DNA of 38,568 nucleotides, taken from positions 1 to 38,568 of the forward strand of contig SVII01000013.1 in assembly GCA_015069605.1 (NCBI GenBank), read 5' to 3'. The notes under the pieces were generated by a model. It ran no database searches. It was given only the letters and a program-made list of their open reading frames with translations, and was not told the DNA's origin. Position numbers and translations under genes: made by a program. Origin of the DNA: Clostridiales bacterium. GTDB lineage: Bacteria; Bacillota; Clostridia; Christensenellales; Borkfalkiaceae. Shown one piece after another: positions 12,748 to 28,567 of the stretch (positions are counted from its first letter, which is position 1; every line of letters starts with the position of its first letter).

Positions 12748-13131
12748 TTAATTCTTTTTACTGCGGGATTTAAAAATCATTGCCGTTAAAAAGGAAAAAA
12801 TCACCGCAGCGGAAATCCCCGCGCTTGCGGCGCTCAACGCGCCCGTGAATGCACCAAATAATCCCTTTTGCGCCCCCTTGATCGCGCCATTTGCTAACAA
12901 GTACCCAAAACCGCTGATGGGAACGGTTGCACCCGCGCCTGCAAAATCCACGAGGTATTGATATAATCCCAAACCTTGTAACGCAACGCCCGACAACATA
13001 AATAATACCAAAATTTTCCCTGCCGTCAAATCGGTGAAATTGATGACCACTTGCGCAATCATACATATTAAACCGCCCACTGCAAACGCTTTGATAAAGC
13101 TCCAAAAAATTTCTATATACGTTTCAAACAT
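12748..13131 (-). CDS. spoVAE: Stage V sporulation protein AE (SpoVAE)
   Basis: A 127-residue, almost wholly hydrophobic protein with about four membrane segments and the family core GGLICMIAQ and GAGATVPISGFGYLLANGAI. SpoVA proteins form the spore inner-membrane channel for dipicolinic acid uptake in sporulation and release in germination. The start at 13131 has AAGGAG seven bases upstream. Its usual partners spoVAC and spoVAD lie 4.4 kb away on the same strand, beyond the hydrogenase operon, and this gene has its own forespore-type promoter. Confidence 0.93.
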   Translation of the reverse strand: MFETYIEIFWSFIKAFAVGGLICMIAQVVINFTDLTAGKILVLFMLSGVALQGLGLYQYLVDFAGAGATVPISGFGYLLANGAIKGAQKGLFGAFTGALSAASAGISAAVIFSFLTAMIFKSRSKKN

Positions 13132-13151
13132 TTTCTTTCTCCTTACAAAAT

Positions 13152-13181
13152 TATTTTGTGAGAAATGTGTTCGCTTTATAC
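13152..13181 (-). promoter_or_regulatory. Candidate sigma-G promoter of spoVAE
   Basis: Minus-strand GTATA (13177-13181), 18-base spacer, CAAAATA (13152-13158). Compared with the sigma-G pattern (GHATR, 17-18, CATWHTA) there is one mismatch in the -10. It is about 20 bases before the start codon. Confidence 0.55.
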
Positions 13182-13187
13182 AAACAT

Positions 13188-13226
13188 AACTTCCCTCAAC
13201 GTTTTTTTGTTGGGGAAGTTTTTTTT
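13188..13226 (+). terminator. Plus-strand terminator upstream of the hydrogenase operon
   Basis: AACTTCCCTCAAC (13188-13200) pairs with GTTGGGGAAGTT (13209-13220), followed by a run of T. No plus-strand gene lies directly before it; the nearest is yunB, so it probably ends yunB transcripts that read antisense through spoVAE. Confidence 0.8.
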
Positions 13227-13268
13227 GTAAAATTTACATTATTTTAATAAAAAAATGCAGTCATAACG

Positions 13269-13297
13269 TTGACACTTTCAAGGAAATATTGTATAAT
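13269..13297 (+). promoter_or_regulatory. Sigma-A promoter of the hydrogenase operon
   Basis: Perfect consensus TTGACA (13269-13274), 17 bases, TATAAT (13292-13297), about 50 bases before nuoE. This predicts strong vegetative expression. Confidence 0.92.
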
Positions 13298-13347
13298 AAC
13301 CCTGTATGATTTAATTTATACTTTTACTACAATGAAGGAGGGCTACT

Positions 13348-13836
13348 ATGGCTCATTTACAAGAGGCGGCTGTCAAAAAAATCAACGAAATTTGCGACAG
13401 ATACGTCAATGAAAAAACTCCGCTTATGATGATCCTGAGTGATATCCAAAAGGAATATGGTTACATTCCTCTGGAAGTGCAGGAAATCGTTTCCGAAAGA
13501 ACGGGCGTTTCGGTCGCTGAAATTTACGGCGTCGTTACCTTTTATTCGTTCTTCTCGCTTACGCCTAAGGGAAAATACGTAATCGGCGTATGTTTGGGTA
13601 CGGCTTGTTACGTAAAAGGCGCTCAACAGATCATCGATAAATTCTCTGAAATCATCGGTATCAAACCAGGCGAAACTTCCGCGGACGGTTTGTTCACTTT
13701 GGACGCTTTGCGTTGTATCGGCGCGTGTGGTATTGCTCCTGCCGTTACTATCAACGGTAAAGTGTATCCCAAATTGACCGTAGACGCTGTTCCTAAAATC
13801 GTAGATGAATATAAAGCAATGGAGGCAAACGACTGA
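13348..13836 (+). CDS. nuoE: NuoE-like [2Fe-2S] subunit of bifurcating [FeFe]-hydrogenase (HydC/HndA type)
   Basis: A 162-residue thioredoxin-fold ferredoxin. Four cluster cysteines are seen in CLGTAC and CIGAC. In trimeric electron-bifurcating hydrogenases (HydABC, HndACD) this subunit joins the NAD-binding flavoprotein. The start at 13348 has GAAGGAGGG upstream and a consensus promoter. Its stop overlaps the start of the next gene (TGATG), so the subunits are translationally coupled. Position as the first of three hydrogenase genes makes the assignment more specific than the fold alone. Confidence 0.93.
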   Translation: MAHLQEAAVKKINEICDRYVNEKTPLMMILSDIQKEYGYIPLEVQEIVSERTGVSVAEIYGVVTFYSFFSLTPKGKYVIGVCLGTACYVKGAQQIIDKFSEIIGIKPGETSADGLFTLDALRCIGACGIAPAVTINGKVYPKLTVDAVPKIVDEYKAMEAND

Positions 13837-15719
13837 TGATTAAGAATTTTCAAGAATTAGATCAGATGTACAACAAATGCGCGTCTTGCCTCAACGGTAA
13901 ATTCACTGGCGAAGACGGCAAAAGACATATCGTGCTTTGCGGCGGTACGGGTTGTATCTCCTCGAGATCGGACGAGATCACTGCGGAATTTAAAAAGCTC
14001 GTAGAAGAAAACAATATGCAGGACAAAGTGACCGTAAACCAAGTAGGTTGCTTTGGGTTCTGTTCCCAAGGGCCTTTCGTAAAGATTTATCCCGAAGATA
14101 CTTTGTACCGTTTGGTGCAAATCGAAGACGTTGCGGAAATCTTTGAAAAGGATATTAAAAACGGCGAAGTTATCGACCGTCTTTTGTACGTAGATCCCAA
14201 CACCGCAGAAAAAGTTACCAAACAAGAAGATATCAATTTCTATAAAAAACAAGTGCGTGTAGCGCTTCACGGTTGCGGTAGTATTGACCCTGAAAATATC
14301 AACGAAAGCCTTGGCGCAGGTGCTTTTAAAGGTCTTGCGCGCGCTTTGCAGATGGATAGAGCGGAAGTTATTCAAGAAGTGCTTGAATCTGGGCTTCGCG
14401 GCCGCGGTGGCGGTGGGTTCCCTACGGGTAGAAAATGGCAGTTTGCTTACGCGCAACCCGAAGGCGAAAAATACGTAGTATGTAACGGCGACGAAGGCGA
14501 CCCTGGTGCGTTCATGGATAGATCTATCCTCGAAGGCAACCCCCTCGCTGTTATTGAAGGTATGATGATTGCAGGGTATGCAATCGGCGCGCAAAACGGT
14601 TATTTCTACGTTCGCGCGGAATACCCTATCGCTGTAAACAGATTGAAACTTGCCGTACAACAAGCGGAAGAATTGGGCTTGTTGGGTGATAATATTCTCG
14701 GTACGGATTTCTCGTTTAGAGTACATATCCGTCTTGGCGCAGGCGCGTTCGTTTGCGGTGAAGAAACGGCTCTTTTAAACTCTATCGAAGGTCAGAGAGG
14801 TATGCCTCGTCCCCGTCCCCCTTTCCCTGCTGTAAAAGGACTTTGGGATAAGCCCTCCATCATTAACAACGTAGAATCGTTGGCTTGTGTACCTTTCATT
14901 TTGCGCGAAGGCAAAGACGCGTTTGCAAAATTTGGCACGGAAAGATCTAAGGGCACGAAAGTATTCGCACTCGGCGGTAAAATCAACAACGTTGGTTTGG
15001 TGGAAATCCCTATGGGTACGACGCTCCGCGAACTGATTTATGATATCGGTGGTGGCATTCCCGACGGAAAACAGTTCAAAGCTATTCAAACGGGCGGTCC
15101 TTCGGGCGGTTGTTTGACTGCGGAAGACCTTGACACGCCTATCGACTTCGACAACCTTGTTGCGAAGGGTTCAATGATGGGTTCGGGCGGCGCAATCGTT
15201 ATGGACGAAGACAACTGTATGGTTGACGTTGCAAAATTCTATATGGAATTCATCTGCGACGAATCGTGCGGTAAATGCACCCCTTGCCGTATCGGTACGA
15301 AGAGAATGCTTGAAATTCTCACTCGTATCACCGACGGTAAAGCTACGATGGATGACCTTACTGAATTGGAAGAATTGGCGGAAAACATCAAGAGCAACTC
15401 CCTTTGCGGTCTTGGTCAAACAGCGCCGAACCCCGTACTTTCCACTTTGAAACATTTCAGAGAAGAATACGTAGCGCATATCGTGGATAAGAAATGCCCC
15501 GCGCATATTTGTAAGAATTTGATGCAGTACGTGATTGAATCGGATAAGTGTTTCGGTTGCGGCGTTTGCGCGAGAGCTTGTCCCGTTGGCGCGTTCGTAA
15601 AAACGGACTACGTTGCGCCTGGCAAGAAATTGCCTGCTTACGCGGTTGATCAAAACAAGTGTATCAAGTGCGGTATGTGTATTGCCTCCTGTAAATTCAA
15701 GGCAATCGTGAAAAAGTAA
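13836..15719 (+). CDS. nuoF: NuoF-like NADH/FMN subunit of bifurcating [FeFe]-hydrogenase (HydB/HndC type)
   Basis: A 627-residue flavoprotein. Residues about 1-120 form a [2Fe-2S] thioredoxin-like domain (CGGTGC, GCFGFC); the core has the NADH/FMN loop GRGGGGFPTGRKW and NGDEGDPGAFMDR; then an [4Fe-4S] site ESCGKCTPCRIGT near 470; and a C-terminal two-cluster ferredoxin domain (CFGCGVCARAC, CIKCGMCIASC). This is the HydB architecture, not plain respiratory NuoF. With HydA and the NuoE-like subunit it couples NADH and ferredoxin oxidation to hydrogen production, or the reverse, in the cytosol. GGAGG lies just before the start. Fourteen bases separate it from hydA. Confidence 0.94.
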   Translation: MIKNFQELDQMYNKCASCLNGKFTGEDGKRHIVLCGGTGCISSRSDEITAEFKKLVEENNMQDKVTVNQVGCFGFCSQGPFVKIYPEDTLYRLVQIEDVAEIFEKDIKNGEVIDRLLYVDPNTAEKVTKQEDINFYKKQVRVALHGCGSIDPENINESLGAGAFKGLARALQMDRAEVIQEVLESGLRGRGGGGFPTGRKWQFAYAQPEGEKYVVCNGDEGDPGAFMDRSILEGNPLAVIEGMMIAGYAIGAQNGYFYVRAEYPIAVNRLKLAVQQAEELGLLGDNILGTDFSFRVHIRLGAGAFVCGEETALLNSIEGQRGMPRPRPPFPAVKGLWDKPSIINNVESLACVPFILREGKDAFAKFGTERSKGTKVFALGGKINNVGLVEIPMGTTLRELIYDIGGGIPDGKQFKAIQTGGPSGGCLTAEDLDTPIDFDNLVAKGSMMGSGGAIVMDEDNCMVDVAKFYMEFICDESCGKCTPCRIGTKRMLEILTRITDGKATMDDLTELEELAENIKSNSLCGLGQTAPNPVLSTLKHFREEYVAHIVDKKCPAHICKNLMQYVIESDKCFGCGVCARACPVGAFVKTDYVAPGKKLPAYAVDQNKCIKCGMCIASCKFKAIVKK

Positions 15720-15733
15720 GCGGAGGTGAAATC

Positions 15734-17500
15734 ATGGCGAAAGTAAATATTAAAATTGAAGGTATTCCTTTTGAAGTAGAAGCCGGCTTGACAATTTTGG
15801 AAGCAGCGAAAGCATGCGGTTTTGAAATCCCCTCCCTTTGCGCTTTTAATCACGGCGAATGTTCCAAGGGTTCGTGCCGTGTGTGCTTGGTAGAAGCTAC
15901 GGGCGCGAGAGGTTTGGTTGCATCCTGCGTATATCCCGTTGCGGAAGGCATGGAAATCACGATTTCTTCCCCCAAAGCAACAGCAGCAAGAAGAACTTCC
16001 GTAGAACTTCTTCTTTCTAACCACAATAAAAATTGCCAACAATGCGAAAAGAACGGCAAGTGTGAATTATTGCACGTAGCTAAGGTCACGGGCGCGCGCG
16101 ATAATATGTATCAGGGCGAACAAACACCTGTTACTGTGGATAAACTTACCCCTTCTATCGTGAGAGATACGTCCAAATGTATCCTTTGCGGTAGATGCGT
16201 GGAAAGATGTAAAAATGCGCACGGACTTGGTATTCTCGGTTTTGAAAAACGTGGCTTCAATACCATCGTTGCTCCTGCGGAAAATAGAAGTTTTGGAAAA
16301 TCCCCTTGTATTTTCTGTGGTCAATGCGTCAGCGTTTGCCCTACGGGCGCGTTGATGGAAGTTTCCGAAATCGATAAAGTGGACGCGGCTATGAAAGCAG
16401 GTAAGTACGTCGTTGTACAAACTGCTCCTGCTGTTAGAGCGGCTTTGGGTGAAGAATTTGATATGCCCATCGGCACGCTTGTAACAGGTAAAATGGTTGC
16501 GGCATTGAAACGTCTTGGGTTTAAGAAAGTGTTCGACACCAACTTTGCGGCAGACCTTACGATTATGGAAGAAGCTACGGAATTATTAGACCGTATGCAA
16601 AACGGCGGCAAGTTGCCTATGATCACTTCTTGTTCGCCTGGTTGGGTCAATTATGCGGAATATAACTACGGTGATCTTCTCCCCCACGTTTCTTCCTGCA
16701 AATCCCCCCACCAAATGTTCGGTGCGATTTTAAAGAGCTACTATTGTGAAAAGAACGGCATTGACCCCAAAGATATGTACGTGGTTTCCATTATGCCTTG
16801 TACGGGTAAAAAAGCGGAAAAGGAAAGACCTGAACTTTCCGTAAACGGTCTTAAAGACGTTGACGCTGTTTTGACGACGAGAGAACTCGCAAAATTGATC
16901 AAGCGTTCGGGTATCAATTTCACAAAACTTCCCGATGCGGAATTTGATAACGATATCGTTGGCGAATACACGGGTGCATGCGTTATCTTCGGTGCGACGG
17001 GCGGCGTTATGGAAGCGGCGCTTCGTACGGCGGCATTTAAGCTCACTGGGGAAGAGCTTGCGAAAGTGGAATTGACGGAAGTTCGTGGCTTTGATGGTAT
17101 TAAATCTGCTACTTATACGATTGCAGGCAAAGAAATTAAAGTTGCCGTTGCACACGGTATGAAATACGCGAAAGTGCTTCTTGACCAAATCAGAGAAGGC
17201 AAGAGCGAATATCATTTCATCGAAATCATGGGTTGTCCCGGCGGTTGCATCGCAGGTGGCGGTCAGCCTTACGTAAAACCTTGTTTCTTGCCCAACGAAG
17301 ACGCGGATATTTTGGATACCTACAAGGCAAAGCGAGCTGCGGCATTGTATCGCGAAGATGAATCGAAGGCTTTGCGCGCTTCGCATAAGAACCCTCAAAT
17401 TATTGAATTGTATGAGAAATTCCTGGGTGAACCTAATTCGCATAGGGCGCATGAATTGTTGCATACGACTTATGCGACAAAAGAAAAATACAGCGATTGA
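15734..17500 (+). CDS. hydA: [FeFe]-hydrogenase catalytic subunit, group A3-like (HydA/HndD)
   Basis: A 588-residue catalytic subunit. In order: N-terminal [2Fe-2S] domain (CSKGSCRVC), His/Cys [4Fe-4S] site (HNKNCQQCEKNGKC), two [4Fe-4S] motifs (CILCGRC, CIFCGQC), then the H-cluster domain with L1 TSCSPGW, L2 MPCTGKKAE and L3 EIMGCPGGCIAGGGQP, which supply the four H-cluster cysteines, and a C-terminal small-subunit-like tail. The TSCSPGW form and the nuoE-nuoF partners indicate the NAD/ferredoxin-dependent bifurcating group. L3 has MGC where many enzymes have MAC. GGAGGTG precedes the start. Maturases (HydE, HydF, HydG) are not in this window. A terminator follows. Confidence 0.96.
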   Translation: MAKVNIKIEGIPFEVEAGLTILEAAKACGFEIPSLCAFNHGECSKGSCRVCLVEATGARGLVASCVYPVAEGMEITISSPKATAARRTSVELLLSNHNKNCQQCEKNGKCELLHVAKVTGARDNMYQGEQTPVTVDKLTPSIVRDTSKCILCGRCVERCKNAHGLGILGFEKRGFNTIVAPAENRSFGKSPCIFCGQCVSVCPTGALMEVSEIDKVDAAMKAGKYVVVQTAPAVRAALGEEFDMPIGTLVTGKMVAALKRLGFKKVFDTNFAADLTIMEEATELLDRMQNGGKLPMITSCSPGWVNYAEYNYGDLLPHVSSCKSPHQMFGAILKSYYCEKNGIDPKDMYVVSIMPCTGKKAEKERPELSVNGLKDVDAVLTTRELAKLIKRSGINFTKLPDAEFDNDIVGEYTGACVIFGATGGVMEAALRTAAFKLTGEELAKVELTEVRGFDGIKSATYTIAGKEIKVAVAHGMKYAKVLLDQIREGKSEYHFIEIMGCPGGCIAGGGQPYVKPCFLPNEDADILDTYKAKRAAALYREDESKALRASHKNPQIIELYEKFLGEPNSHRAHELLHTTYATKEKYSD

Positions 17501-17532
17501 TTGTAGATTATTGGCAATATCGTAAATACGCA

Positions 17533-17564
17533 AAAACCTCTTCTTTTACGAAGAGGTTTTCTTT
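17533..17564. terminator. Bidirectional terminator between hydA and spoVAD
   Basis: AAAACCTCTTC (17533-17543) pairs with GAAGAGGTTTT (17550-17560), with T or A runs on both sides; it serves the convergent hydA and spoVAD genes. Confidence 0.9.
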
Positions 17565-18575
17565 TTATTCTACGTTTTCTATAGCAACTGCATGAGCAAT
17601 TCCAGGAATACTCTCCCCTTGTCCGCTCGAAACCGTCGATAAAAGTGCGCCCGTTGCCACAAAAAGCACTTTGTTGAGCTCTCGTTTTTTTAATTTGTCC
17701 ATGATATAAGAATTGAAAACGACTGCGCTGCAACCTGCGCCGCTACCGCCTTGAAATTCCTTTTCAATGACTTTATAAATAATTTCGCCGCAATCCACGT
17801 GATTGCCTGTAATATCCACTCCCTTTTCCCACGTGAGATCTTTTAAAATACGGCTGCCCAAAGCTCCCAAATCCCCCGTGACAATCAGATCGTAATAATC
17901 AGCGTTTCTGCCCGTATCTTTTAGATGTTGCAAAATCCCAAGGGATGTACTAGGACTCATTGCGGCACCCATATTATTTACGTCCGTAATGCCATAATCT
18001 ACGACTTTCCCAAACGTTGCCGACGTGATTGCAGGCGCATTTTTTAAATCATTATCCCCACCCATGTCCGCGATTAGCGCACCACCTGCGCCCGTGACCG
18101 TCCATTGGGCTTGCGGCGGACGAGTGTTTCCTAGTTCCAAAGGATAACGGTATTGTCGTTCTGCAGAAGAAAAATGACTGCCCGTTGCCGCGATAATTTT
18201 TTTATAATATCCTGCGTTGACAAACGCCGCCGCAATCGCCAAACTTTCCGCCATAGTGGAACACGCTCCGTACACACCCAAAAAGGGAAAATCGTAATCG
18301 CGCGCCGCAAAAGATGCGGAAATAATTTGATTAAGCAAATCACCTGAAATGAGTAAATCCACGTCCTTTTCTTCCAAGCGTGCGTTTTGGATTGCTTGTG
18401 AGATTGCATAGGAAAGCATTTTACATTCCGCCTTTTCGTACGTACTTTCCCCAAACATATCGTCAGTTAGCGCTTTATCGACGTATTTACCGACAACTCC
18501 TGCGCATTCTTTCGGCCCTGCAATCGTTCCCGTTGCCACAATTCTCGGTTTGTTTTTAAAAAAGATTGTTTGCAT
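17565..18575 (-). CDS. spoVAD: Stage V sporulation protein AD (SpoVAD)
   Basis: A 336-residue thiolase-fold protein with the family segments ATGTIAGPKE, GVYGACSTMAES, ATGSHFSSAERQYR and GAGCSA. SpoVAD sits on the spore inner membrane and binds dipicolinic acid. The cysteine in GACST is at the thiolase active-site position but the protein is not thought to be a thiolase. The ATG at 18575 is preceded by GAGGGG at a good distance; a 14-residue longer frame has no such site. It is 16 bases behind spoVAC and shares its transcript. spoVAE does not follow directly. Confidence 0.95.
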   Translation of the reverse strand: MQTIFFKNKPRIVATGTIAGPKECAGVVGKYVDKALTDDMFGESTYEKAECKMLSYAISQAIQNARLEEKDVDLLISGDLLNQIISASFAARDYDFPFLGVYGACSTMAESLAIAAAFVNAGYYKKIIAATGSHFSSAERQYRYPLELGNTRPPQAQWTVTGAGGALIADMGGDNDLKNAPAITSATFGKVVDYGITDVNNMGAAMSPSTSLGILQHLKDTGRNADYYDLIVTGDLGALGSRILKDLTWEKGVDITGNHVDCGEIIYKVIEKEFQGGSGAGCSAVVFNSYIMDKLKKRELNKVLFVATGALLSTVSSGQGESIPGIAHAVAIENVE

Positions 18576-18591
18576 CTCTTTCCCCTCGCGT

Positions 18592-19044
18592 TTATAAAAA
18601 CAAATAAATAATCCCAACGATTGTGCCTGCTAACACACCGTAAACGATAATTGGGCCTGCAACAATGAACATTTTTGCCGCCAAACCGTACACAAGCCCT
18701 TCCGTTTTAAATTCAATCGCAGGCGAGGCAACGCTGTTGGCAAACCCCGTAATGGGTACAATCGAACCCGCGCCTGCATTCCTACCAATTCGGTCGTAAA
18801 CACCAAAACCTGTCAATAGCGTGCCTAAAAAAATTAAAATCACGCTGACTGTTCCTGCAAGCTCGTCACCGCTCAATCCTGCCACCTCTTCTAACATAAT
18901 TCGTAAAAACTGCCCGATAACACAAATGAAACCGCCTACGATAAACGCTCGAAAACAGTTTTTAAAATGTTGCGTCGGTGGATCAAACGAATTGACGTAC
19001 GCTATATAATTCTTATTGTAATTCTCTCTATTTTTACCCGTCAT
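18592..19044 (-). CDS. spoVAC: Stage V sporulation protein AC (SpoVAC)
   Basis: A 150-residue membrane protein with an N-terminal soluble stretch (YNKNYIAYVNSFDPPTQ) and about four hydrophobic segments containing FIVGGFICVIGQ and GAGSIVPITGFANSVASPAIEFK, strong SpoVAC signatures. In Bacillus SpoVAC acts as a mechanosensitive channel in spore germination. The ATG at 19044 is chosen because GGGGGCAGGT lies just upstream; a frame 13 codons longer has no site. No clear sporulation promoter could be fixed in the 140 bases upstream, although one is expected. Confidence 0.95.
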   Translation of the reverse strand: MTGKNRENYNKNYIAYVNSFDPPTQHFKNCFRAFIVGGFICVIGQFLRIMLEEVAGLSGDELAGTVSVILIFLGTLLTGFGVYDRIGRNAGAGSIVPITGFANSVASPAIEFKTEGLVYGLAAKMFIVAGPIIVYGVLAGTIVGIIYLFL

Positions 19045-19184
19045 CGCGTACCTGCCCCCTTCTTTTTGTATTTTCAATCCCACACGGAAAGCACGTTTCC
19101 CTTTCTTCCCGCGTTCGTATTTCCGTTTCGTACACTTTGATTTTTTCCATAGGAACAGTTTGCGAATATTCTCGTTTTTTATAC

Positions 19185-23932: not shown

Positions 23933-24640
23933 TTACGTAGCCACGTCTGAAAGATACCTCATCACCCCTGCGGCGATTGTTTCTACTAAACGTTTTTGGC
24001 CAACGTTACTTGTCAACATATCCTCATCGGCGGCATTGGACAAAAAACCGCACTCGACAATCACGGAAGGGCGCGGCGTACATTCCAGCATAAAATATTG
24101 CCCAGCCGATGCCTTTCTACCCTTTGCGCCGTCCGATTTATACAAATTATTTAAATCTTCTTGTAAAATCTTTGCCAGCCGTTCACTTTTTTCATTGTCT
24201 TTATTATAAAAAACTTGCGCTCCACGAGAAGATTGCGCTGGATAATAATTTTGGTGAATGGATACAACAAGCATAGGATCGGTATTTTCTATAATCTCTT
24301 TCCGTTGTTGCATATCGCGCCGTTTAAATCCTTTAGTCGGCGTTCCATATAAGCCAGCTTCCGTTTTTCGAGTCAGTGTTACGTCAAACCCCATATCCGT
24401 CAAAACGTCTTTCAGTTGCAACGTAATCGAAAGATTAATATCACTTTCCTTTACTCCCGTGTTTTTCCCAACCACACCGCCGTCAATTCCGCCGTGACCT
24501 GCGTCTAAAACAATCCGCATCCCACCGTCGGAAAAGGAAGAAACGGGAAGCGGCGCGATTAACACACGAATACATAACGCCATCGCCGTCACAAAGGTAA
24601 CTATTACCGCCAAACACAATGCAAAAATAGATTTTTTCAT
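23933..24640 (-). CDS. cwlD: Germination-related N-acetylmuramoyl-L-alanine amidase CwlD
   Basis: A 235-residue protein with an N-terminal signal-anchor (residues about 5-29) and an Amidase_3 domain. Zinc ligands are visible in LDAGHGGIDGG, the following Glu (GVKESDINL) and SIHQNYY; the catalytic Glu is in VECGFLSN. CwlD removes peptide side chains so that muramic-delta-lactam can form in spore cortex, needed for germination. The single catalytic domain, length, sporulation context and a sigma-E-like promoter favour CwlD over a vegetative amidase. There is no Shine-Dalgarno site, and the start lies five bases after the -10 box, so the message may be leaderless. Confidence 0.88.
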   Translation of the reverse strand: MKKSIFALCLAVIVTFVTAMALCIRVLIAPLPVSSFSDGGMRIVLDAGHGGIDGGVVGKNTGVKESDINLSITLQLKDVLTDMGFDVTLTRKTEAGLYGTPTKGFKRRDMQQRKEIIENTDPMLVVSIHQNYYPAQSSRGAQVFYNKDNEKSERLAKILQEDLNNLYKSDGAKGRKASAGQYFMLECTPRPSVIVECGFLSNAADEDMLTSNVGQKRLVETIAAGVMRYLSDVAT

Positions 24641-24746: not shown

Positions 24747-25805
24747 TTATAAAAACTTCAAATCGGACGTTGGCGGTGTTTGTGCTGTAATAGCTTTTGA
24801 TTTATTATCGACGACCTCTTTTGGTTTATCCGCATCCTGCGATGTGTTAGATGAAAGCGCGGATGGGGTTGTGGGCGGTATTGCAGGCAGCGCGGGCACT
24901 TCCGTTGGCACGGATGGGAAACGAATTTTTTCCGCTTCTTGCATCCACTCAGAGTAAACATCGTGAATATGCTTAGTTACGATTCGTCCCATACCTGCCC
25001 CTGTCATTTTCTTAAAATCCGCTATATTTTCCACTTCGGAAATCTCTAATTTGCAACCGCACATCATATCCAAACGCAATTTTTCACAGCCTTCAAAATA
25101 CGGAACGCAGAAGTATTGCACTCCCATTTCACACGACAATCTTGCCACACGCGAAAGCGTCGGATAGGCGTATTTTTTGTCCACCCAAACCTTTAAAACC
25201 GCTCTTTTTGCGATACGTTTTAAACGTTTCAATTCTTTTCGTATCTCGCCGTAACGACATTCTGATAAAAGCGAAGGCGTAAGCATTACGGTGATTTCTT
25301 TCGCACCGCGTTTGATTGCCCATTTTGCTTCGTACGCCTTCATTTTCGACAACGTTTCACCGTCACCACCAATAATACAATCGAGCTTTACATTACTGCC
25401 CGTCAAATAGGTGCGCGCATATAACAGTTTTGTCGGCGGTAATTTCACAGCGGCTTGCTTCAAACGCACGGCGCGTTCGCATACCCGTTGCACGTCCTCG
25501 CCTTGCGATAACATTGCTTCCGACCGAGCGATAGCGCGCATAATTTCTTCTACTTTCTTTTGACGCTTATACGCACGATACTCCTCAGCATCCTTACGCG
25601 AAAGAATGACACCCTTATCCGTCGTGGCAAGGTTTTTCGTGTGCGTTGCCGCGGGCGAAGTGATTGCCACGGGCTGTGTTGCAGGCTTTAAAGAAGAATT
25701 TGCATTCGTAAGTATTTCTTTTTGTTCCGTTTGCTTTTCCATACGTTGAGTATGCGACAAAACTGCTTTTCTTATTCCAATTTTCTCCAATTTGTGACAA
25801 GACAT
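24747..25805 (-). CDS. Unrecognised protein with a degenerate DeoC-like (aldolase) barrel and disordered tails
   Basis: A 352-residue protein. Residues 1-70 are low-complexity (Thr/Ala/Gln/Lys), 75-100 probably helical, 105-292 resemble deoxyribose-phosphate aldolase, and 297-352 are Pro/Thr/Ser-rich. In the core, VKLDCIIGGDGETLSKMKAY then EAKWAIKRGAKEI parallels the DeoC stretch VCTVIGFPLG...KAFEAKEAI..GADEI. The DeoC catalytic Asp (EIDMV) appears as Thr (EITVM), the Schiff-base Lys segment FVKTSTG appears as YFCVPYFEG, and the second Lys segment VKASGGI as LEISEVEN. An aldolase function is therefore unlikely. The start is unsure: ATG at 25805 (leaderless, four bases after a -10) or 25742. 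Function unknown; genes around it are cwlD and a small membrane protein. Confidence 0.72.
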   Translation of the reverse strand: MSCHKLEKIGIRKAVLSHTQRMEKQTEQKEILTNANSSLKPATQPVAITSPAATHTKNLATTDKGVILSRKDAEEYRAYKRQKKVEEIMRAIARSEAMLSQGEDVQRVCERAVRLKQAAVKLPPTKLLYARTYLTGSNVKLDCIIGGDGETLSKMKAYEAKWAIKRGAKEITVMLTPSLLSECRYGEIRKELKRLKRIAKRAVLKVWVDKKYAYPTLSRVARLSCEMGVQYFCVPYFEGCEKLRLDMMCGCKLEISEVENIADFKKMTGAGMGRIVTKHIHDVYSEWMQEAEKIRFPSVPTEVPALPAIPPTTPSALSSNTSQDADKPKEVVDNKSKAITAQTPPTSDLKFL

Positions 25806-25823: not shown

Positions 25824-26129
25824 ATGAAAAATGCAATCTTCCTTATTGATAATTTACTGCTGTCCGCTTTCCCCTTAGGATTCATTTCCTTGATTGTTAT
25901 GTTTTTGCTATGTTTTGGCGGTGTACACATCATCAAATTGGCAAAACTTGGTTGGGATAGCCGCAGCCATGAAAAGCCAAAAAATGCCCCCATGTCAAAA
26001 CCTGCAGACTGCATAAAAGAAAAAGCTCCTGCAAGCCAACCGCAAGAGCCCGTATATTATATTGTCGAACGCAAAAAGAAACGTCCCAAAACTAGTTACG
26101 GCGAGCCAAAAGAAATCCGCTTTAAATAA
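25824..26129 (+). CDS. Small single-span membrane protein of unknown function
   Basis: A 101-residue protein not recognised as a named family. Residues about 13-36 form one hydrophobic span (FISLIVMFLLCFGGVHII), followed by a positively charged, probably cytoplasmic tail with a Pro/Lys/Ala-rich stretch and a C-terminal block EPVYYIVERKKKRPKTSYGE that looks conserved in type. There is no Shine-Dalgarno site; the ATG lies six bases past a TATACT box, suggesting a leaderless message. It is divergent from the DeoC-like gene and ends at its own terminator. A functional link with the DeoC-like protein is only a guess from the shared promoter. Confidence 0.7.
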   Translation: MKNAIFLIDNLLLSAFPLGFISLIVMFLLCFGGVHIIKLAKLGWDSRSHEKPKNAPMSKPADCIKEKAPASQPQEPVYYIVERKKKRPKTSYGEPKEIRFK

Positions 26130-26172: not shown

Positions 26173-26559
26173 TTATTTTTCCGCGCCCGCAGGACGAAGT
26201 TCGCCCGAATCCTCGTCGAATTTTTCTAAATTTTCGCCGTTCGCCCACAGTCTTTCCAAATGATAGAAGAGCCTTGTTTCGTCGTTGAAAATATGCACAA
26301 TAACGTCGCCATAATCTATTACAGCCCAACGGCCGTCGCGCACACCTTCCATACGCGTAGGCGCAATCCCGTGATCGCGTTCAATGAGTTCTTCCACTCT
26401 TTCACCCATCGCTTTGATTTGCGGAGCGTTGCTACCGCTTGCCAAAACGAAATAATCGCAAAGATCCGTCTTTTCGCGCACATACAACGCGACGATGTCC
26501 TTACCTCTCTTATCCGCCAAAGCCTTACATACAGCAATTGCTAATTCCTTACTTGTCAT
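26173..26559 (-). CDS. rsfS: Ribosomal silencing factor RsfS
   Basis: A 128-residue protein of the RsfS/Iojap family: KGKDIVALYV-like strand, CDYFVLASGSNAPQIKAMG, and WAVIDYGDVIVHIFNDETRLFYHLERLW. RsfS binds L14 on the large ribosomal subunit and blocks subunit joining in starvation. The ATG at 26559 is preferred because AAGGAG lies seven bases upstream; the ATG two codons earlier is only one base from that site. It follows the nadD-yqeK fusion by about 18 bases, the usual Firmicutes order. The C-terminus has an acidic extension. Confidence 0.95.
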   Translation of the reverse strand: MTSKELAIAVCKALADKRGKDIVALYVREKTDLCDYFVLASGSNAPQIKAMGERVEELIERDHGIAPTRMEGVRDGRWAVIDYGDVIVHIFNDETRLFYHLERLWANGENLEKFDEDSGELRPAGAEK

Positions 26560-26577
26560 ATTCATTCTCCTTTCGTA

Positions 26578-27729
26578 TTATTCTTTATTTTTCGCGGCGT
26601 AAAAATCGTATGCTTGTCTTGTCAACGGATAGACCTCGCCGCCTTTCGTTTCTAAAAATTCCAAAGTTTGCCTAAGCGCTTCTTCCATACATAAATCCAA
26701 GCCGCTTTTATCCCAAAATAGCTTCCGCAAAATCTCTACACCATCGTAGGAGCGCTCTTCCTCTAACATATCCGCAAGAAAAATGAGTTTTTCAAGTTCG
26801 CTCATATTCGGTCTTGCGCTGGTGTGGAAACGGATCGCGTTAAGGATATCTTCATCCGTTACGGAAAAATATTTTTTTGCTACATACGCGCCTTGATACT
26901 GATGAATGACGGGCAAAGGCACTTCACCCCACTCTTTTTGTAAGGTAAAATCCTGCAAATATGGAGAATCTTCGGGTAGATTTTTCGCACAATCGTGAAA
27001 TAGTGCCGCCGTAATCGCTTTTTGCTCTGATATTTTCAAACCATTTGCGCGTGCCGCGGCAAGGTTCGCCACACGAATACTGTGCATCATGCGTTGCGTT
27101 TTTTCCAAGCCTAATGCCTCTTTTGCATTTTCGATTTTGTACAGTCCGTTTTTTTGGATATATTCCGCCACCGATATAGGGGTAAAGTGCGTTAAATCAG
27201 TACCTGCCCCCGCCAAAACGCGAATTTTTGTAGAAGAAACGTCCGCACCGTTGTAATGAATTTCAGCCAAATCTTTTCCAAATTTCTCATGAAAAAATTT
27301 GCGTTCGGGTGCTAACCAGCCCTCTTTTTCATTTCGGCCGCAAACTGCCAACGTTACGTTTTCTAAAATCTTTTGAGGTTCTTTCCACGTTGGAAAATCT
27401 CGCAACATATCCGTACCAACCAACCAAAAAATTTCGGCTTTTGGATATTCCTTTTTAAAATGCTCGCAGGTCAAATACGTATAACTTGTACCGCCTTGCA
27501 TAATTTCAAAATCGCTGATTTCCACCTTTGGCTGATTTACAAACGCCAAACGGCACATTTCCAAACGATACGTTGCATCCGCCAATACTCGCCAAGGTTT
27601 ATGCGGCGGCGAATAGGCAGGCATAACGATAAGTTTGTCTAAATGCAAGCTTTTGATTGCCGCCTCCACCAAACGGATATGTTCTATATGAATGGGATCA
27701 AACGACCCACCAAAAATCGCTATTCTCAT
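26578..27729 (-). CDS. nadD: NadD-YqeK fusion: nicotinate-mononucleotide adenylyltransferase plus HD hydrolase
   Basis: A 383-residue fusion. Residues about 1-195 are NadD: IFGGSFDPIHIEH (the HxGH-like site reads HIEH), PAYSPPHKP, WLVGTDML and ADVSSTKIR. Residues about 205-383 are YqeK: HSIRVANLA, FHDCAKN (HD metal site), HQYQGAYVA and FHTSARPNMSELEKLIFLADMLEE. NadD makes deamido-NAD; YqeK is an HD-family hydrolase of Ap4A. In Bacillus they are neighbouring separate genes; here no stop lies between. The start at 27729 follows AAAGG. rsfS follows in the same operon. Confidence 0.94.
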   Translation of the reverse strand: MRIAIFGGSFDPIHIEHIRLVEAAIKSLHLDKLIVMPAYSPPHKPWRVLADATYRLEMCRLAFVNQPKVEISDFEIMQGGTSYTYLTCEHFKKEYPKAEIFWLVGTDMLRDFPTWKEPQKILENVTLAVCGRNEKEGWLAPERKFFHEKFGKDLAEIHYNGADVSSTKIRVLAGAGTDLTHFTPISVAEYIQKNGLYKIENAKEALGLEKTQRMMHSIRVANLAAARANGLKISEQKAITAALFHDCAKNLPEDSPYLQDFTLQKEWGEVPLPVIHQYQGAYVAKKYFSVTDEDILNAIRFHTSARPNMSELEKLIFLADMLEEERSYDGVEILRKLFWDKSGLDLCMEEALRQTLEFLETKGGEVYPLTRQAYDFYAAKNKE

Positions 27730-27779: not shown

Positions 27780-27814
27780 GTTTAAAAGGCAATATTTTCG
27801 TCAAAAATTTCAAT

Positions 27815-28567
27815 ATGAAAAAATCAGCTTTTATTTCCGACGTATTATTTACAACTTTTTTGACTGCTCTTTTCACTCTTTGTTTGTTTCGATATCTAAA
27901 AATCGGGTTTTGGCTCGCGGTGAGTTTAAGCCTCGTTTGCGGTATTTTGGCGGGCGCATCCGCTTTCGCATATCTACAAAGCAAACGCAAAAGTCTGTAT
28001 CTCAAACGTTCGGACGAGGCGCAAAAAGAAAAATTTTTATTACATCTTGCCTTGCTTTCCGACGAACAAAAACGTAAATATTTCACTCCACTTTTAGCGG
28101 AAGAAGATAAACCTATCCACTCTTTTGGCAAACGTTGCCTCATCAACGAGGATACGTTCTGGAGATTACAATTTACTCTATCCCCCGTCAACGCTGATGA
28201 TATCGCGGCATTTTCGAGAATACGTTCTTTAAAGAAAAAAGTGGTGTTATGTTCTAAAATTGATGAAGAAGCTTTTTTGCTTTGCCGTCGGCTTGCCATT
28301 GAAGTGAAAACCGGTGACGACGTGTATCGATTCGTCAAAGCGAAAAACGGGTTACCTGAAAAATTTTTAGGTGAAGAAAATGCGGATAAAAAAACGAAAC
28401 GGCGTTTTCGGCTTTGGTTCGCAAAAAACAACAGTCGCCGTTTCCTCGTCGGCGGCGCATTGGTTCTTGTCACCTCGCTAATAACGCCCTTTCCTTATTA
28501 TTATCTTATTTTGGGAAGTTTACTCCTTCTTGCCGCGCTTTTCATCCGTGTGTTTGGCTATGAATAA
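27815..28567 (+). CDS. Orphan membrane protein with two N-terminal and two C-terminal spans
   Basis: A 250-residue protein not assigned to a family. Two hydrophobic spans at about 8-26 and 30-52, a soluble middle of about 150 residues rich in Lys/Glu/Arg (KRSDEAQKEKFLLHLALL, CLINEDTFWRLQF), and two more spans at about 208-246. Both ends are then membrane-embedded and the middle lies on one face. The start is unsure: ATG at 27815 gives a normal N-terminus but has no Shine-Dalgarno site; an in-frame ATG at 27767 would overlap the divergent promoter. It converges on nnrD with nine bases between stops. No function proposed. Confidence 0.7.
   Translation: MKKSAFISDVLFTTFLTALFTLCLFRYLKIGFWLAVSLSLVCGILAGASAFAYLQSKRKSLYLKRSDEAQKEKFLLHLALLSDEQKRKYFTPLLAEEDKPIHSFGKRCLINEDTFWRLQFTLSPVNADDIAAFSRIRSLKKKVVLCSKIDEEAFLLCRRLAIEVKTGDDVYRFVKAKNGLPEKFLGEENADKKTKRRFRLWFAKNNSRRFLVGGALVLVTSLITPFPYYYLILGSLLLLAALFIRVFGYE

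Follow-up and report, generated by a model that had tools for sequence, protein, structure and literature searches.

A DeoC-homologous putative pseudoenzyme with a forespore-type promoter in a family of gut Clostridia

The locus and its genes

The window, the whole stretch of 38,568 nucleotides that was analysed (contig SVII01000013.1 of assembly GCA_015069605.1, family Borkfalkiaceae), belongs to an assembly of 1.34 Mb in 35 contigs. The gene studied here is on the reverse strand, between a cwlD-like amidase gene and a divergent small open reading frame (ORF). Six genera of the family are labelled g1 (which includes the window genome), g26, g28, g29, g128 and g132. The locus contains the following features:

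23933–24640 (−), cwlD-like amidase, downstream neighbour in g1
24747–25742 (−), pseudo-DeoC coding sequence with its corrected start, 331 aa
24750–24915 (−), low-complexity C-terminal tail, variable in the alignment
24927–25547 (−), DeoC-homologous barrel, limits approximate
25614–25742 (−), low-complexity N-terminal tail (ORF residues 22–64), variable
25743–25805 (−), promoter DNA, read as non-coding
25824–26129 (+), divergent ORF for a small membrane protein, 101 aa, starting 6 nt after a −10-like TATACT
26173–27729 (−), two genes that we take from their sequences to be rsfS and nadD, the neighbours most commonly shared across genera

The first-pass annotation had assigned the gene to an ORF at 24747–25805 (−). 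This frame exists in the window, but its start is most likely misplaced. An ATG stands at the M22 column of the frame in 30 of 31 aligned g1 orthologues (alignment A1, from which the orthologue of genome G025 was left out), and in five of the 31 (L038, L040, L048, L051 and L053) an in-frame stop is found no more than seven codons 5′ of this column. For both reasons the true start is most likely the ATG at 25742, rather than 25805, giving a protein of 331 aa. Residues 1–21 of the longer frame are almost certainly untranslated, and the corresponding DNA, conserved around TTTGTCGCATAMT, is read as promoter. Residue numbers below refer to the longer frame.

The deoxyribose-phosphate aldolase (DeoC) pattern recognised in the first pass was borne out by profile comparisons. 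The window protein matched NCBIfam TIGR00126 with an E-value of 4e-15 over residues 101–231, a PDB search returned DeoC 3ngj (E 6.3e-11), and a wider-family profile (A3) matched PDB DeoC chains with an E-value of 6e-39 over the barrel. The TIGR00126 score, 55.8 bits, is under the curated cut-off of 117.3. Pfam gave only sub-threshold chance matches and no DeoC family for the window protein, and Pfam DeoC matched three of the 40 rows of alignment A2, at E 0.01. By these comparisons the window protein is homologous to DeoC well above chance, and the TIM-barrel fold is presumably kept. A PHROGs search returned nothing, a plasmid collection contained DeoC-level matches in two Proteus records, and an NCBIfam match to methionine gamma-lyase (best 18.4 bits, cut-off 549.7) was judged to be chance. 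The low-complexity tails described at first can be seen by eye on both sides of the barrel, and their length is very variable among 40 rows. The first pass knew of no described family of this kind, and a literature search gave nothing relevant.

The neighbouring amidase was correctly named cwlD in the first pass, with an E-value of 6.7e-41 to PF01520; its match to TIGR02883 (E 4.1e-50, 170.5 bits) is under the cut-off of 221.55. It is encoded on the same strand after a gap of 106 bp, and among the genera surveyed it adjoins the gene in g1 only, where it does so in all 30 loci. The cwlD neighbourhood is conserved among homologues within g1 only, and the neighbours shared more widely are the small membrane ORF, rsfS and nadD. 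In a first survey of 49 loci rsfS was found beside the gene in 48, the sole miss (L032) being a locus where the sequence ends, and in a further survey it was found in 34 of 40. The six loci without it were L195, L198, L202, L208, L216 and L217, of which L195 and L208 are at contig ends. The L202 copy (g28, genome G434, catalytic columns ACG) may have moved, because the usual neighbours are all missing from the 7.5 kb retrieved. The divergent 101-aa ORF is beside the gene in 30/30 g1 loci, 17/19 others and 34/40 further loci; it matched no family above the Pfam cut-off and none in NCBIfam or PHROGs, and it has a conserved basic C-terminus, YYIVERKKKRPK..YGEPKEIRFK. Another divergent membrane ORF, at 27812–28567 (+) between nadD and nnrD, is retained in most surveyed loci, with a sub-threshold Pfam match.

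Profile matches in the window include spoVAC, spoVAD, spoVAE, yunB, a sigma-H relative and cwlD, some of them under equivalog cut-offs. A sigma-G homologue elsewhere in the genome scored 350.9 bits (equivalog cut-off 457), with a model that also matches in 10 of 14 control genomes. Given this set of matches and the sigma-G homologue, the host organism looks like a spore former. A sigma-G-like site (G000:C11:9220–9248) some 70 nt upstream of the sigG homologue (L152) is consistent with autoregulation. At 12748–19083, spoVAE is parted from spoVAC–spoVAD by genes resembling, and presumably encoding, an NADH-linked hydrogenase set.

Catalytic columns and descent of the gene

Three motifs in the canonical DeoC of the same genome (L061) defined the catalytic columns: DEIDM for the Asp, KTSTG for the first Lys and KAAGG for the second. 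This housekeeping copy, at 103–783 of L061 and on a separate contig, has an intact Asp/Lys/Lys set. The E. coli numbering of these residues (D102, K167, K201) is assumed from the first-pass annotation. In the window the columns are:

25290–25292 (−), catalytic Asp position, here Thr172 (g1 rows: Thr in 28/31, Ser in 3/31)
25107–25109 (−), first catalytic Lys position (K167), here Cys233 (g1 rows: Cys in 11/31, Ser in 20/31)
25044–25046 (−), second Lys position (K201), here Glu254 (g1 rows: Glu in 26/31, Gln in 5/31)

The catalytic Asp and both Lys are therefore all replaced, as had been proposed from the window alone. Two glycine-rich motifs, one following the second Lys and one at strand 8, which bind phosphate in DeoC structures, are also changed, from KAAGGI to LEISEV and from GTS to VTK.

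The extent of the loss differs between genera. All 33 g1 rows read T/S, C/S and E/Q at the three columns, and none is intact. The 17 g28 rows display nine combinations, again with none intact, while the two g128 rows read DCK and ESK and the single g132 row VLY. Among 18 g26 rows, nine read ERK, seven EKK, one EVK and one EVI; since both Lys are kept in seven and the second Lys in 17, some residual activity is possible in this genus. Altogether, the set is partly or wholly lost in 71 rows of g1, g26, g28, g128 and g132. It is intact in 17/17 g29 rows and in 29/29 canonical rows. Two further rows, L195 (frame fused to a transporter part; DKK) and L208 (truncated; EKK), were excluded from the tree and from the triad and motif counts. 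By its active site, the window protein would be no DeoC aldolase in spite of its homology, and it is best described as a member of a putative new pseudoenzyme family, whose intact form, judged by the same columns, persists in the sister genus g29.

Strong matches were found in 32 of 37 g1 genomes, the window genome included, and the orthologues derive from gut metagenome assemblies. The five g1 genomes without the gene are 61–84% complete. Two further g1 genomes, 94 and 96% complete, have no match, yet spoVAD is present in both, which indicates that the pseudo-DeoC would be dispensable for sporulation in some genomes. All six labelled genera of the family contain the gene. Matches outside the family, sought in 297 genomes of the order, did not surpass an E-value of 4.6e-25, and the 13 order rows taken for the tree all keep Asp/Lys/Lys. 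A combined profile at a threshold of 1e-12 matched 205 of 251 family genomes, canonical copies included.

A tree from a quick, short search, calculated with no bootstrap and with two long branches flagged, placed the 71 pseudo rows on one side of a branch with an SH-aLRT support of 99, and these rows together with g29 (88 rows) on one side of another with a support of 92 (g29 alone, 88); a smaller tree gave 98 and 89 for the same two branches. The canonical rows, among them the housekeeping DeoC copies of g1, g28 and g26, fall outside the 88-row group. Each g29 genome listed has one match, and the housekeeping DeoC of the other genera, where found, is located elsewhere in the genome. The simplest reading of the tree and the gene order is that the common ancestor had an active deoC gene at the nadD–rsfS slot, which remained active in g29 and lost catalysis in the other genera. 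Intact-triad homologues, which the first-pass annotation had named as evidence that would tell against it, do exist at the same slot (g29, 17/17); they look ancestral, and do not seem to tell against the loss in the other genera.

Despite the loss of the active site the barrel has been retained, as first suggested. The dN/dS ratio (NG86) is 0.09–0.24 for ten family pairs and 0.07–0.08 for three canonical pairs, with synonymous distances that are mostly above 1. The pseudo-DeoC protein is under purifying selection.

Promoter and start of translation

The DNA upstream of the corrected start contains one further feature:

25749–25777 (−), sigma-G-type promoter GAATA-N18-CATACT, whose −10 box ends 6 nt before the ATG at 25742

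The conserved DNA in this region has the order GGAATAA, a free spacer, TTTGTCGCATAMT, 6 nt, and ATG. The pattern GNATR-N18-YATAMT is present within the last 60 nt of 27/31 g1 loci, which are orthologous and not independent, against an expectation, derived from those loci, of 0.0037 per 60 nt, and YATAMT stands exactly 6 nt before the ATG in 27/31. Sigma-G promoters have a spacing of 17–18 nt. The B. subtilis consensus boxes cited in PMC3416734 are GNATA and CAWAMTA for sigma-G, and GTATA and GGNAANAMTR for sigma-F; the window promoter matches the sigma-G boxes at 5/5 and 6/7 bases, with an 18-nt spacing. Its −10 box alone is one mismatch from the sigma-K consensus cited there (PMC3416734), and only the −35 box and the spacing favour sigma-G over sigma-K. 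Inspection by eye upstream of the gene showed no sigma-K −35 box.

A sigma-F-type pattern, GHATA-N14/15-GGGAAA, precedes the start in 8/17 g28 loci, by a definition tightened after the sequences had been viewed, and its GGGAAA ends 10–12 nt before the ATG. Only nine matches to it occur in total in the 312,658 nt of the g28 loci on both strands. Of the earlier patterns, the first matched 3/17 g28 loci and a looser one 9/17 g28 and 1/2 g128 loci, with a chance expectation of 0.018 per 62-nt window. In L115 both boxes are kept with a different spacer. Elsewhere, a search for forespore promoters in g26, g29, g128 and g132 found only one sigma-G-like site (1/18 in g26) and one loose sigma-F-like site (g128). 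Transcription in the forespore, by sigma-G in g1 and by sigma-F in part of g28, is a well-supported prediction from these sequences. The spore half of an earlier proposal for a spore- or envelope-related role is supported by the sigma-G-type promoter and by cwlD in 30/30 g1 loci. The envelope half is unsupported, since by eye the protein has neither an export signal nor a hydrophobic N-terminus and the promoter type is that of forespore genes.

The distance of 6 nt between the −10 box and the ATG suggests that the pseudo-DeoC mRNA is leaderless, its transcript starting at about the ATG. This reading rests on the spacing, because absence of a Shine-Dalgarno site is weak evidence, being common among the window genes and the g1 housekeeping deoC genes. 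At the g1 starts a 5-nt site was found in 0/31 and a 4-nt site in 1/31. The count of 0/31 was obtained with a narrower rule than that used for the other genera, where a 5-nt site was accepted before any in-frame start among the first 110 codons and was found in 16/17 (g29), 2/18 (g26) and 3/17 (g28) loci. A strict site is also absent from 17/34 window genes, a hand-picked set with one wrong start (27812), and from 8/10 g1 housekeeping deoC genes.

Within the window, a −10 box at −12 to −7 of an annotated start was found only at the pseudo-DeoC gene and the divergent small ORF. At other sigma-G-like sites in the genome, a start codon 6 nt after CATACT belongs to GerA (GTG), Veg, a zinc-dependent phospholipase C-type protein, and a 60-aa ORF with no Pfam family. 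Across the genome the bare sigma-G pattern is not in excess (22 sites, 19 in the reversed control). CATACT-N6-ATG shows a weak excess, with nine sites and five in the reversed control (for N9, three and eight). Starts exactly 6 nt after the box, at L154, L155, L158 and L164 (all G000) and at 25742 and 25824 in the window, mark possible leaderless forespore mRNAs. Leaderless translation is described as rare in mapped clostridia, with 15 potential cases in C. difficile 630 (PMC7438776); the present loci hint that these bacteria use it for some forespore genes.

Basic face, tails and candidate functions

Three further elements of the protein bear on its possible function:

25554–25586 (−), conserved N-terminal motif EEYRAYKRQKK ahead of the barrel (in g1, E75 invariant, K80 and K83 nearly so)
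25203–25256 (−), basic helix after strand 4, RYGEIRKELKRLKRIAKR, assigned as a helix by homology, with seven positions scored for basic residues
24750–24767 (−), C-terminal peptide SDLKFL, a remnant of the tail motif ETDYRCRLEGSDLKFL of relatives

A loose form of the basic N-terminal motif is present in 31/33 g1, 12/17 g28, 10/18 g26, 15/17 g29, 2/2 g128 and 1/1 g132 rows, and in none of 29 canonical DeoC rows. The seven positions of the helix have a helical spacing, and every row of the locus family has four to seven basic residues there, with means of 6.2 (g1), 6.5 (g28), 5.9 (g26), 5.5 (g29), 6.0 (g128) and 7 (g132). The corresponding means are 1.6 for the housekeeping DeoC copies of g1 and g28 and 2.6 (1–5) for other members of the order, and the single g26 housekeeping copy has 0. 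The mean barrel pI of the locus family is 9.64 in g1, 9.69 in g28 and 8.82 in g26, with 9.11 for L118 of g29; for housekeeping copies it is 5.75 (g1, 10 rows), 6.11 (g28, five) and 6.97 (g26, one), and for 13 other members of the order 6.87 (4.97–9.44). Since g29, with its intact active site, also has the basic face, this face predates the loss of catalysis, and the basic helix need not explain why the pseudoenzyme is retained. A search for ETDYRCRLEGSDLKFL in all loci retrieved and the window matched at 18 distinct g1 C-termini of these orthologues only, which suggests a partner-binding peptide after a long variable tail in part of g1.

The preferred explanation, on which we are evenly divided between acceptance and doubt, is that the protein is a pseudoenzyme derived from a DeoC in place, made in the forespore, which acts without catalysis by binding a polyanion or a partner. 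An active deoxyribose-phosphate aldolase would have sat after nadD–rsfS in this bacterial family and descended in place to the pseudoenzyme, to be transcribed by sigma-G in the forespore (by sigma-F in part of g28) as a leaderless mRNA. From the replaced columns we infer that the window protein has no catalytic activity; it would then act in the forespore or spore core, where its basic face may bind a polyanion such as DNA, RNA or the ribosome, or an acidic membrane. The long flexible tails, together with the conserved C-terminal peptide in part of g1, may recruit a partner.

An unlikely but still substantial alternative is a neofunctionalised enzyme, in which D142, C143, the GG-GET loop, T172, C240, C251 and E254 form a new active site in g1. 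In the 31 g1 rows D142, G147, G149, K156 and E159 are invariant, and C143, E150, T151, T172, C240 and C251 are nearly so. A different conserved pocket, as anticipated in the first pass, can therefore be drawn within g1 (D142, C143, GG-GET, C240, C251), but it does not extend across genera: g28 shares the GG-GET loop without D142 and varies through nine combinations at the catalytic columns. Moreover, K156, E159 and G149 are also frequent in canonical DeoC and so may be structural. It is improbable that the protein is a ligand sensor that binds, but does not cleave, a nucleoside-derived metabolite or deoxyribose phosphate; its barrel core is kept, as are the Lys and Glu of the loop helix and, in seven of 18 g26 rows, both catalytic Lys, whereas the window has replaced both glycine-rich motifs to which phosphate would bind. 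A slightly poorer prospect still is that the gene matters as a transcription unit, its sigma-G promoter driving cwlD in the forespore and its protein being incidental. The strand, the 106-bp distance and the constancy of cwlD in g1 would suit such an arrangement, but the protein is under purifying selection and the gene persists in g28 and g26 with no cwlD found beside it. Decay towards loss, to which the absence of the gene from some g1 genomes might point, is already disfavoured and barely credible in view of open frames and conserved motifs in 31/31 aligned g1 rows, the low dN/dS and the conserved promoter.

A more specific form of the preferred polyanion- or partner-binding pseudoenzyme can be put forward only tentatively. 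In this one bacterial family a metabolic aldolase would have been turned, in place, into a spore protein that binds a polyanion and is expressed in the forespore only, from a leaderless mRNA; it would belong to the nucleoid, the ribosome or the inner membrane of the dormant spore. Catalysis would have been lost stepwise, with genus-specific replacements, while a pre-existing basic surface was kept, and some of the forespore genes in these genomes would have leaderless starts.

The pseudo-DeoC resembles the DeoC aldolase (TIGR00126, PF01791; EC 4.1.2.4) in its barrel and in sharing its locus with the intact g29 DeoC. It differs from the aldolase in lacking the Asp/Lys/Lys set and the glycine-rich motifs, in its TIGR00126 score, in a barrel pI of about 9.6 rather than about 6, and in its added tails, N-terminal motif and forespore-type promoter. 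The promoter type is that of the forespore sigma-F/sigma-G regulon, which includes GerA, SpoVA and the small acid-soluble proteins, and the GerA gene of this genome has the same promoter-to-start spacing, with GTG. We know of no member of that regulon related to DeoC, and none was found in a literature search. Pseudoenzymes in general keep the fold and lose the catalytic residues, with an active paralogue elsewhere in the genome, and they are usually known only as end points. Here, in contrast, the loss can be traced genus by genus through intact, half-lost and fully lost forms, mostly at one locus in sister genera, which makes the order of events open to test. There is, in addition, a different, forespore-type promoter in two pseudo genera, g1 and g28. 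If the preferred explanation is true, uncultured gut bacteria would have a spore protein of a kind not recognised before.

A link between catalytic loss and the ability to sporulate was considered and rejected, spoVAD being present in 225 of 251 family genomes, g29 included. Two loci have unusual arrangements. Genome G438 (g26) contains two family copies, L207 and L208, one of them at a contig end, and the DeoC of L195 (g29) reads as fused to part of an ABC transporter near a contig end, which is probably an assembly or frame artefact.
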